From NCBI GenBank assembly GCA_007693335.1, contig REDU01000159.1:1-64000 (forward strand): 64,000 nt of DNA, written 5' to 3'. Below the pieces are notes generated by a model that saw only the letters and a list, made by a program, of their open reading frames with translations, did no database searches and was not told the origin of the DNA. This document shows positions 16,154-19,665 of this stretch, one piece after another (within the stretch, counting starts at the first letter, position 1; every line of letters starts with the position of its first letter). The position numbers and the translations under genes were made by a program. The DNA comes from Ilumatobacter sp. GTDB taxonomy: Bacteria; Actinomycetota; Acidimicrobiia; Acidimicrobiales; Ilumatobacteraceae.

Positions 16154-16246
16154 GCTCCGAGCCCTCCGACGCTCCGCGGCCTGTCGTGCCCTGCGACCGG
16201 CACGGCACGGGGTCGAGCGACGTCGGGTGCGCTCGGGGTGCCCGGG

Positions 16247-16252
16247 TACGCT
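16247..16252 (+). promoter_or_regulatory. -10 box, winged-helix/TPR regulator
   Basis: TACGCT ends 7 bases before the ATG at 16260 and argues against the in-frame ATG at 16254. Confidence 0.5.
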
Positions 16253-16259
16253 GATGGAC

Positions 16260-17843
16260 ATGGAGTGGCGTTTCGCCGACTTCACGCTCGATGACGAACG
16301 TCGGGAACTCCGACGTGGGAGTACCCCTGTGCCGCTCGAGCCCCGGGCACTGGCACTGCTCACCGAGTTGGTCGAGCAGCACGACCGGGTCGTCACGAAA
16401 GAGGAGCTGCTCGACTCGGTCTGGGGCGACCGGTTCGTCAGCGAGTCCGCGCTGACCACGCAGGTGAAAGCGGTGCGACGGGCCGTTGGTGACAGTGGCG
16501 CCGAGCAGGCGATCGTCAAGACGGTGCACGGTCACGGTTACCGCTTCGTGGCGCCACTCGATGGATCAGGTCACGGGTCGGGTCGGGCGGGCAACGGGTC
16601 GGGCCGCTCTGCGCCCGTCGGTACTCCGGCCGCGATGCCGATCGACGAGAACCCGGTCGTGGCGGTGCTGCCCTTCGACGACGTGTCCTCGGGGCGGGGC
16701 AGTGTCCACCTGGCCGCCGGCCTCACGTCCGACGTCATCACCGGGCTGTCGCGGCACCGATGGCTGCGGGTGATCTCCCGGGCGATGTCGTCGGGCTATC
16801 AGGGTCTGCCCGACGCCGTGCGCAGGTTGAGCGATGACCTGGGGGTCGGGTACGTGGTCGAGGGAAACGTCTGGGTCGAGGGCCGGAGACTACGCGTCAC
16901 CGTCAACCTCACCGAGGTGGCCAGCGGTACGTGCCGGTGGGCGGAGCGGTACGAACGGGACATCGAGGACCTGTTCGACGTGCTCGACGAGATCACCGAC
17001 GTGGTCGTGGCCACCATCGAACCCGAGGTGGGATTCGCAGAGCGCCAGCGCGTGCATCGGGGTCAGCGGGCCGACCCGAGGGCGTGGGACCTGTTCCACC
17101 TCGGCGTCGACCATCTGTTCCGGTTCACCGCGCACGACAACCTCGAGGCGCAGCGGCTCTTCGATCGTGCCCGCGTCATCGACCCGGGATTCGGAGACGC
17201 TCAGGCGTGGTGGGCCTATTCGGTGGTGCTCGGGATGACGTACTGGGGAACCGAGCCCGACGGGGCCACGCTCGACGCGGCGTTGGCGGCCACCACGGTC
17301 GCGATCGGCAGCGACGACCACGATGCGGTGTTCCACATGCTCAGGGGGCGGGTGCAGTTGGCGCGCCGTGACTACCGCTCGGCATTGATCGAGAACCAGC
17401 GCGCCATCGAGCTCAACCCGACCTTCGCGGCGGCGTACTGCGGTCTGGGTGACTCGCTCAGTTGCGAGGGGCGCTACGACGAGGCGATCGAGCAGTTCAC
17501 CCGCTCGGTGGCGCTCGGTCTCCACGACCCACAGCGTTGGGCCTTCTTGTCGTACGGAGCGCTCGCCCACCTGTTGGCCGGTCGGTACGAAGAGGCCGTC
17601 GAGTGGGCCGACCAGGCTGCCGTGATCCCGAACTGTCAGTACTGGGCCCTGGCCCATCGCGTGGTGGCGCTCGCCCATCTCGGACGCACCGACGATTGCG
17701 CATCGGCGGTCGAGGCGCTCGTTCGCGACTGCCCGCACTTCACGGTCGCCTACGCCCGTCACAAGCTGTTCTACCTGAAGCGTCCCGAGCAGTTGGCGTG
17801 CTATCTCGACGGGCTCCGCGCCGCCGGCGTGCCCGAACGTTGA
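16260..17843 (+). CDS. CadC/OmpR-type winged-helix regulator with TolB-like and TPR domains
   Basis: Residues 1-100 form an OmpR/PhoB winged helix (LEPRALALLTELVEQHDRVV, then ALTTQVKAVRRAVGD and VKTVHGHGYRFVA). After a glycine/serine linker, residues about 130-255 resemble the TolB-like/FlgO domain found in CadC- and adenylate-cyclase-linked proteins (VVAVLPFDDVSSGRGSVHLA). The C-terminal 250 residues are TPR-like repeats (IELNPTFAAAYCGLGDSLSC, GRYDEAIEQF). No membrane helix separates the DNA-binding and sensing parts, so it looks like a soluble one-component regulator. The target is unknown; it precedes the methyltransferase gene by 91 bases. Confidence 0.8.
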   Translation: MEWRFADFTLDDERRELRRGSTPVPLEPRALALLTELVEQHDRVVTKEELLDSVWGDRFVSESALTTQVKAVRRAVGDSGAEQAIVKTVHGHGYRFVAPLDGSGHGSGRAGNGSGRSAPVGTPAAMPIDENPVVAVLPFDDVSSGRGSVHLAAGLTSDVITGLSRHRWLRVISRAMSSGYQGLPDAVRRLSDDLGVGYVVEGNVWVEGRRLRVTVNLTEVASGTCRWAERYERDIEDLFDVLDEITDVVVATIEPEVGFAERQRVHRGQRADPRAWDLFHLGVDHLFRFTAHDNLEAQRLFDRARVIDPGFGDAQAWWAYSVVLGMTYWGTEPDGATLDAALAATTVAIGSDDHDAVFHMLRGRVQLARRDYRSALIENQRAIELNPTFAAAYCGLGDSLSCEGRYDEAIEQFTRSVALGLHDPQRWAFLSYGALAHLLAGRYEEAVEWADQAAVIPNCQYWALAHRVVALAHLGRTDDCASAVEALVRDCPHFTVAYARHKLFYLKRPEQLACYLDGLRAAGVPER

Positions 17844-17934: not shown

Positions 17935-18702
17935 ATGAGTACTCCAATCGACCCAGCTGCACTTCGCGACGAGGTGCGGGCGAAGTACCGGGAGGTGGCC
18001 GAGACGCCCCAGGCCACGTTCCATTTCCACACCGGACGCGACCTCGCGCGGCGACTCGGCTACGACATGGATCACGTCGACGAGTTGCCCGACGTCGCGG
18101 TCGAATCGTTCGCAGGCGTCGCGAATCCGTTCGAGCTCCGCGTCGTCCAGCCCGGTGAGCGGGTGGTCGACGTGGGGTCGGGGGCCGGCTTCGACAGCCT
18201 GCTGGCGGCGCGGGCGGTGGGATCGGCCGGGGCCGTGATCGGCGTCGACATGACGTCGGAGATGTTGTCGAAGTCGCGTCTCAACGCCGAGCGTCTCGGC
18301 GTCGAGCACGTCGAGTTCAGAGACGGCATCGCCGAAGCGTTGCCGGTCGACGACGGGTGGGCCGACGTCGTGATCTCCAACGGTGTGTTCAACCTCTGTG
18401 CTGACAAGCGGGCGGCGTTCGACGAGGTGGTGCGAGTACTCCGGCCAGGGGGCACGTTGCAGTTCGCCGACATCGCGAACGGGCGGCCCGTCCCCGAGGA
18501 GGCGATGCGTGAGATCGACCTCTGGACGGGTTGAATCGCCGGTGGCCTGCCGTGTGCAGGCTGGCAGGAGATGCTCACCGAGGTCGGTTTCGTCGAGATC
18601 CGGATCGGTGATCCCGTCGATACCTTCGCGGGTGCCGGGGGCGAAGCGAATGCCAGGGCGTTCGACGTACACGGATATCCGTTCGCCGCCCGACGGCCGT
18701 GA
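17935..18702 (+). CDS. ArsM-like SAM methyltransferase, probable selenoprotein (Sec at UGA 18532)
   Basis: Reading stops at UGA 18532-18534 after 199 codons, but the same frame continues 55 codons to TGA 18700-18702 with sequence typical of the C-terminus of arsenite-methyltransferase-like proteins (IAGGLPCAGWQEMLTEVGF, then ARAFDVHGYPFAARRP). The residue before IAGG in homologues, as I recall the family, is cysteine, so UGA at codon 200 would replace Cys by selenocysteine. Motif I is VVDVGSGAGFDSLLAA (77-92), followed by GVDMTSEML and SNGVFNLC (Cys155). A hairpin with SECIS geometry follows the UGA. The GCGNP cysteine of true ArsM is GVANP here, so the methyl acceptor is uncertain. The alternative is a nonsense mutation. 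Confidence 0.75.
18532..18571 (+). promoter_or_regulatory. SECIS-like hairpin after in-frame UGA
   Basis: Six perfect pairs GCCTGC (18545-18550) with GCAGGC (18556-18561) enclose the five-base loop CGUGU. Two wobble pairs (44/62 and 43/63) extend it, and GCC 18538-18540 can pair with GGC 18563-18565 across a bulge. The loop begins 17 bases after the UGA and has G as its second base, matching the bacterial SECIS pattern of a short stem-loop directly after the codon with a G early in the apical loop. The hairpin is inside coding sequence, as in bacterial selenoprotein mRNAs. Confidence 0.6.
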
Positions 18703-18729: not shown

Positions 18730-19665
18730 TCATACGGAGCGGGAGGGGAACGGGCCGGTGTCGAGGTGCACGCCGGGCTGTCGGGCGGCCCGGCTCTCGA
18801 TGATCTGGTGCAGGACCGAGCCGACGGCCTGGGTGGCGGCACTCGGGGCCGGACGGCGTCGTCGTGCCCAGGCGACCACGCGGCGGGGGAGTTCCGGAAC
18901 ACTCACCCGGGTGAACTCGCCCGTCGGCCAGCGGGAGATGGCCGTGGCCGGCACGATGGCGGCGCCGTAGCCGTCGAACGCCAGCGAGGCCAGAAGTCGC
19001 ACGCCGTCGATCTCGGCCTGGGGTCGCAGGGTGATGCCGGCCGAGCTGGCCGCCCGATCGAGCACCCGTCGGAGTGCGGCGCCCTTCGGGGGCAGCAGCA
19101 GCGGGACGTCGTCGAGCTCGGCCAACGGCATCGAGGTGCGCCCGGCCAGGGGGTGCTTGGAGTGGGCCAGCACCAACAGGTCCTCGGCGAAGAGTGGTTC
19201 GATGAGCAGCTCGGGATCGTCCACCGGAAGGTGCACGATGGCGGCGTTCAGCTGGCCCGAGACAACGCCGGGGATGAGCGTGGACGTGCTGCCCTCGTGC
19301 ACGATGGGATGCACGAGCGGATGGGCGCGTTCCATCGCCGTGAGCAGCTGGGGCATCAGCCAGCGTGCCGTGGTGCCGATCACGCCGATCCGCGCATCGC
19401 CGGAGACCTCGTCGTCGAGCGATGCGATGTCGGCGGCGATGTCGTCGATCTCGTGGAGGATCCGCCGGGCCCGATCGACCACGCGGGCGCCTTCGTCGGT
19501 GAGGCCACCGTGGGCCCGGTCGACCAGCGTGACCCCCAGCTCCTTCTCGAGCTTGGCGACGTGACCCGACACGTTCGACTGCACGGTGAACAGTGCCCGG
19601 GCTGCGGCTGAGAAGGTGCCGTGATCGGCGATCGCGACGAGAGCGGACAACTGCCGGACATCCAT
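18730..19665 (-). CDS. LysR-type transcriptional regulator
   Basis: This 311-residue protein has the LysR winged helix at residues 1-60 (LVAIADHGTFSAAARALFTV, LEKELGVTLVDR) and a type-2 periplasmic-binding effector domain (about 90-300; RIGVIGTTARWLMPQLL). Its target is unknown. It converges on the methyltransferase gene and is divergent from the 6C RNA and plsC. The -10 box TATCGT at 19674-19679 overlaps the inverted repeat GATATC-G-GATATC (19676-19688), a likely site for autorepression, 8 bases before the ATG. Confidence 0.85.
   Translation of the reverse strand: MDVRQLSALVAIADHGTFSAAARALFTVQSNVSGHVAKLEKELGVTLVDRAHGGLTDEGARVVDRARRILHEIDDIAADIASLDDEVSGDARIGVIGTTARWLMPQLLTAMERAHPLVHPIVHEGSTSTLIPGVVSGQLNAAIVHLPVDDPELLIEPLFAEDLLVLAHSKHPLAGRTSMPLAELDDVPLLLPPKGAALRRVLDRAASSAGITLRPQAEIDGVRLLASLAFDGYGAAIVPATAISRWPTGEFTRVSVPELPRRVVAWARRRRPAPSAATQAVGSVLHQIIESRAARQPGVHLDTGPFPSRSV

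Follow-up and report, generated by a model that had tools for sequence, protein, structure and literature searches.

The gene at positions 17935 to 18702 of the window (the whole stretch of 64,000 nucleotides of Ilumatobacter sp. DNA analysed here) appears to encode a stand-alone, selenocysteine (Sec)-containing class I SAM methyltransferase with the fold of the arsenite methyltransferase ArsM, and its likeliest substrate would be reactive sulfur. Judged from sequence, we give this reading as a whole a probability of about 0.6. The gene and its internal UGA are placed as follows.

17935..18702, forward strand: coding sequence of the predicted selenoprotein methyltransferase, 255 residues, stop included (frame, tblastn, AlphaFold2 model)
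18532..18534, forward strand: UGA, putative Sec200, where ArsM has its third arsenic-binding cysteine (Cys224 of CmArsM) (TGA/Cys alternation)

The frame opens with the ATG at 17935, meets an in-frame TGA at 18532-18534 and runs on through 55 sense codons to the TGA stop at 18700-18702. tblastn matches in many genomes span residues 1-255 across the internal TGA, at 65-77% identity, so that the open frame beyond it is not a product of chance. After the UGA it is the third codon positions that vary most, a pattern as in coding sequence and much like that of the part before it, and synonymous changes make up 12 of the 25 changed codons for L018, 14 of 28 for L113, 20 of 31 for L023 and 17 of 27 for L019. 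Scans for promoters and terminators found none.

We read the codon at residue 200 in 80 relatives from species genomes and in 7 matches from the family or order of the host. Within the clade of the window protein it is TGA in 27 distinct genes (the window gene included; L041 and L117 are one gene, counted once) and TGC or TGT in 7. Relatives outside the clade have TGC or TGT there, except for L087, with TGA, and the distant L119, with Gln. The host genome (G000, a draft in 162 contigs, 93.7% complete) has adjacent selA and selB genes (contig C40), selD (C9) and a tRNA-Sec whose anticodon is TCA (C51); none of the sel genes is on the window contig. A SelA match was found in every TGA-carrying genome checked (in G062 as a fragment only), and SelA is absent from 5 of the 7 clade genomes with a Cys form (L026, L027, L030, L031 and L034). 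Since most members of the host's family have SelA (44 of 61 relatives), the informative part is the contrast between TGA and Cys within the clade. The host formate dehydrogenase has no internal TGA.

A candidate recoding element follows the UGA.

18544..18562, forward strand: SECIS-like hairpin (pairing in 27 sequences, codon-preserving null)

Its 7-bp stem pairs 18544-18550 with 18556-18562 around an apical loop of 5 nt, CGUGU (18551-18555); the first paired base comes 10 bases after the UGA and, counted from the U, bases 13-19 pair with bases 25-31. Folding z-scores of single sequences were uninformative in this GC-rich DNA, and we therefore used covariation and a codon-preserving null, in which synonymous codons were redrawn at each gene's own usage. 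Across the 27 sequences, 95.8% of the stem pair cells are kept, a share that drops to 25-47% if the partner strand is shifted by 1 to 3 bases. The 187 pairs observed were reached in 0 of 1000 null draws, which average 141 pairs and go no higher than 157, and the summed folding energy is lower than in all 200 codon-preserving draws. Two stem pairs change on both sides (G-C/C-G and C-G/U-A/G-C), and each time a non-wobble change in one codon is matched by the wobble base of the other codon. Tested on the window sequence by itself, the hairpin stands out only marginally in the number of pairs (p 0.08) and more clearly in folding energy (p 0.01); in the PRAGW subgroup a single G-G mismatch interrupts the stem. 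The hairpin is missing from the 7 Cys genes, in which 2 to 4 of the 7 stem pairs can form, as many as chance would give. Bacterial SECIS elements have a G among the first two loop bases; the present element has such a G, together with a stem-loop after the UGA and covariation. Rfam searches of the window and of the gene region returned no SECIS family.

The TGA/Cys alternation, the sel genes and the covariation of the hairpin make Sec200 real to the limit of what sequence evidence can tell, and we hold it to be almost certain that the UGA is read as selenocysteine. A plain stop, with a product of 199 residues and the remainder a decaying remnant, is what automated gene callers would assume; against it stand a post-UGA sequence conserved in 27 genomes from several phyla, the strictness of the alternation, the co-occurrence of selA and the covarying stem, and its probability seems to us negligible. 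Databases which stop at the UGA would cut the enzyme to 199 residues, with the loss of its sole conserved chalcogen ligand. The same three lines of evidence strongly support the original prediction of Sec200 in a 255-residue product. The internal UGA from which it had the frame resume for 55 codons is conserved in relatives, its alignment of residue 200 with the ArsM cysteine that precedes IAGG/IAGA is correct, and selA, selB, selD and tRNA-Sec, which it proposed to look for in the genome, are all four there.

Pfam places the protein among the class I SAM methyltransferases (Methyltransf_31, E 1.6e-27), and the best PDB matches of its AlphaFold2 model, made for all 255 residues with the TGA read as Cys (mean pLDDT 96.5, pTM 0.93), are the ArsM structures 4fr0, 6cx6 and 5evj. 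That it is a methyltransferase of ArsM descent is, from alignment and model, scarcely to be doubted. In the maximum-likelihood tree it belongs to a well-supported clade (100/98; 34 rows), separate from canonical ArsM, with haloarchaeal and Chelatococcus Cys homologues at the base and about five changes of the Sec/Cys state. The clade ranges over Actinomycetota, Chloroflexota, Acidobacteriota and Pseudomonadota, and over the haloarchaea as Cys forms. The motifs compared with ArsM are the following.

18019..18039, forward strand: FHFHTGR, residues 29-35, in the N-terminal cysteine region of ArsM, specific to the clade (alignment)
18115..18129, forward strand: GVANP, residues 61-65, with Val for the first arsenic cysteine of ArsM (GCGNP) (alignment)
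18169..18195, forward strand: SAM-binding motif DVGSGAGFD, residues 79-87 (invariant alignment columns, Pfam)
18376..18387, forward strand: SNGV, residues 148-151, with Gly for the second arsenic cysteine of ArsM (SNCV) (alignment)

Arsenite is bound in CmArsM by Cys72, 174 and 224 (PMC5552862), and in an alignment that included 5evj these three cysteines correspond to Val, Gly and Sec in the window protein. The whole clade shares this pattern: GCGNP has become GVANP or GTGNP, SNCV has become SNGV, the N-terminal stretch reads FHFHTGR or nearly so, and the only arsenic ligand retained is the third, as Sec or Cys. The name "ArsM-like" used in the original prediction is thus apt for fold and descent, and fails for membership of the arsenite methyltransferase family, whose NCBIfam cut-off the protein does not reach. 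GVANP (for GCGNP), Cys155 and Cys207 had been placed correctly, and the suggestion that the substrate may not be arsenite gains from the loss of the second cysteine (SNGV) and from FHFHTGR, both overlooked at the time. The idea that Cys155 and Cys207 are redox partners we rejected as a general mechanism, since neither is conserved among the Sec forms: among the TGA orthologues, position 155 can also be occupied by V, S, T, M, A or I, and residue 207 is Arg in one Sec-containing subgroup and absent in another.

We propose that the ribosome would decode the UGA as Sec200 with SelB, tRNA-Sec and the hairpin starting 10 bases downstream. Situated at the third arsenic-cysteine place, next to the SAM pocket, Sec200 would be the sole chalcogen ligand that the clade has kept, and may hold or activate one soft substrate atom, which would take the methyl group from SAM. 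As the other cysteines that hold arsenic have been lost, the selenium probably binds some other soft substrate, which may be reactive sulfur: the methyl group would then go to sulfide, a persulfide or a small thiol, and not to inorganic arsenite. That the substrate is a sulfur species, which we infer from the neighbours of the clade, we rate at slightly below even odds. The neighbours in the window itself are two.

16227..17843, forward strand: winged-helix and TPR regulator, possible regulator of the gene (Pfam Trans_reg_C and TPR; conserved neighbour)
18730..19665, reverse strand: LysR-family regulator, downstream and convergent (domain search)

The winged-helix/TPR gene ends 91 bases upstream of the methyltransferase gene on the same strand, and is also found upstream of the L018 and L113 orthologues, a neighbour retained within the genus; for the LysR gene of the window we found no evidence that it belongs to the system. 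Both neighbours are regulators, not sulfur genes, and the link to sulfur rests on relatives. Neighbours within about 5 kb were scored with the same queries at 35 clade loci and 59 control ArsM loci, a contrast biased in favour of the clade because the queries were drawn from it: ArsR-rhodanese genes occur at 7 clade loci vs 1 control locus, metallo-beta-lactamase-rhodanese genes at 7 vs 0, DsrE-like genes at 6 vs 0, OsmC genes at 5 vs 0 and MFS transporter genes at 4 vs 0. TusA (L033) and a TtuA-like thiolation gene (L113, from the host's genus) were each found once near clade genes, and the haloarchaeal Cys homologues adjoin OsmC. A sulfur substrate is favoured because of this company of ArsR-rhodanese, metallo-beta-lactamase-rhodanese, DsrE, TusA and OsmC. 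It is established elsewhere that ArsR-type repressors which sense sulfane sulfur lie beside persulfide dioxygenase, rhodanese, DsrE and TusA genes (PMC12423496). The ArsR-rhodanese gene of the host (68% identical) adjoins an MFS gene on another contig.

Several clade loci (L026, L027 and L029, the last also with OsmC) lie near an upstream sigma-70-family factor. At L026 a putative zinc-finger anti-sigma gene and another methyltransferase of the ArsM-like type (GVGNP) come after the sigma factor, and OsmC is close by, an arrangement that is possibly a sigma-controlled stress cluster.

The main rival to the sulfur reading is that the enzyme is still an arsenic methyltransferase, in which Sec200 would bind As(III) or methyl-As(III) together with His30 and His32 of FHFHTGR, the histidines standing in for the lost cysteines. 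It would agree with the ArsM descent and fold and with the genes for an ArsR-type regulator and an MFS transporter that adjoin several members of the clade, as such regulators and transporters are also found in arsenic operons. Both other arsenic cysteines are gone throughout the clade, however, and its neighbours are sulfur-transfer genes. Moreover, the arsenic cluster of the host (L154, L169 and L170, comprising an ArsR that carries a fused ArsC domain of the phosphatase type, another ArsC, and Acr3) is on C40, a contig other than that of the window, and does not include this methyltransferase. A precedent exists in TtArsM of Thermus thermophilus, which methylates arsenite with a single cysteine and two histidines as the proposed other ligands (PMC8649762), but this cysteine, C77, which its authors align with a cysteine of all ArsMs, is near the N-terminus and not at the third-ligand place where Sec200 stands, and TtArsM has no selenocysteine. 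We consider a Sec/His arsenic site unlikely. The host arsenic cluster lies about 3 kb from selA and selB on C40.

Considerably less probable is a detoxification by volatilisation, in which Sec200 would be the ligand and selenide, methylselenol or tellurium compounds would be methylated. Soft-atom methyltransferases of ArsM-like fold do exist, and at L025:2816-4542, directly upstream of the Sec methyltransferase gene, lie genes for a TauE/SafE exporter and an AIRS-type selD-like protein, but such a neighbour is found at only 1 of the 35 clade loci.

If the substrate is indeed sulfur, the enzyme would add a methylation branch to the bacterial handling of reactive sulfur. One might then speculate, more tentatively than for the substrate itself, that the clade represents a selenoenzyme type of its own, a single-selenolate SAM methyltransferase acting on reactive sulfur under the control of a rhodanese-fused ArsR, which would descend from an ArsM that lost its arsenic cysteines except for the one replaced by Sec. 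The clade also offers natural Sec/Cys pairs, matched by the loss of selA, for the question of why a methyltransferase, and not an oxidoreductase, needs selenium.

Sec at the UxxG motif of ArsM-like proteins is already known, as are three NCBIfam models of fusion selenoproteins with this N-terminal domain. We found no description of the stand-alone single-ligand clade, its SECIS or its sulfur neighbourhood; part of this may already be known from a paper of 2025 about the neighbourhoods of selenoproteins. A 2008 list drawn from ocean metagenomes includes Sec in arsenite-methyltransferase-like proteins (PMC2398784), and the Sec arsenite methyltransferase with UxxG is tabulated in recent reviews (PMC9312934, PMC13188914). 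Its motif has the same place as U200-I-A-G of the window protein. That selenoprotein is filed under NF008823/PRK11873 (example WP_011987699.1, compared by its listing), below whose cut-off the window protein falls; the window protein is also devoid of the other two arsenic cysteines. A canonical ArsM, L087:4872-6017 from Deltaproteobacteria bin73, has GCGNP and SNCV, scores above the NF008823 cut-off and carries Sec at the same site; its C-terminus is fused to an ArsR-like helix-turn-helix, which puts sensor and enzyme into one selenoprotein.

The window protein finds some of its best matches in the N-terminal 225 positions of NF041537 (ArsM/AhpD), NF041536 (ArsM/DUF2284) and NF047649 (methyltransferase/UXPK-star), in all three of which, according to a review, UxxG is a Sec motif. 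The scores (233.7, 201 and 202.8 bits, respectively) are far below the cut-offs of 460-575. For NF041537 (233.7 vs 510 bits) the match covers the N-terminal part only, and the frame ends at residue 255 with no AhpD CxxU; for NF047649 (202.8 vs 460 bits) the terminal TGA is followed by TR and then a TGA, with no UXPK. We thus rejected the window protein as one of these fusion selenoproteins on score, length and the absent second Sec motif: unlike them, it has neither a fused second domain nor a second Sec. True members were not found in 47 genomes, where the best NF041537 scorer (267 bits, below the cut-off) is L157 from Desulfobacterales GWB2_56_26. This ArsM-like protein has FCGVGNPF and SNGA, its codon at the Sec site is UGA, and two further UGA codons stand side by side at the C-terminal end.

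With ArsM itself (NF008823/PRK11873; 4fr0, 4fsd, 5evj, 6cx6) the window protein has in common the fold, the SAM motif and the overall alignment. Against the NF008823 cut-off of 263 bits it scores 217.3 and the members of its clade 189-237, whereas canonical ArsMs reach 317-361. ArsM has a cysteine where the window protein has Sec200, and, unlike the three-cysteine ArsM family, the window protein and its clade are devoid of the first and second arsenic cysteines, carry FHFHTGR and keep other gene neighbours.
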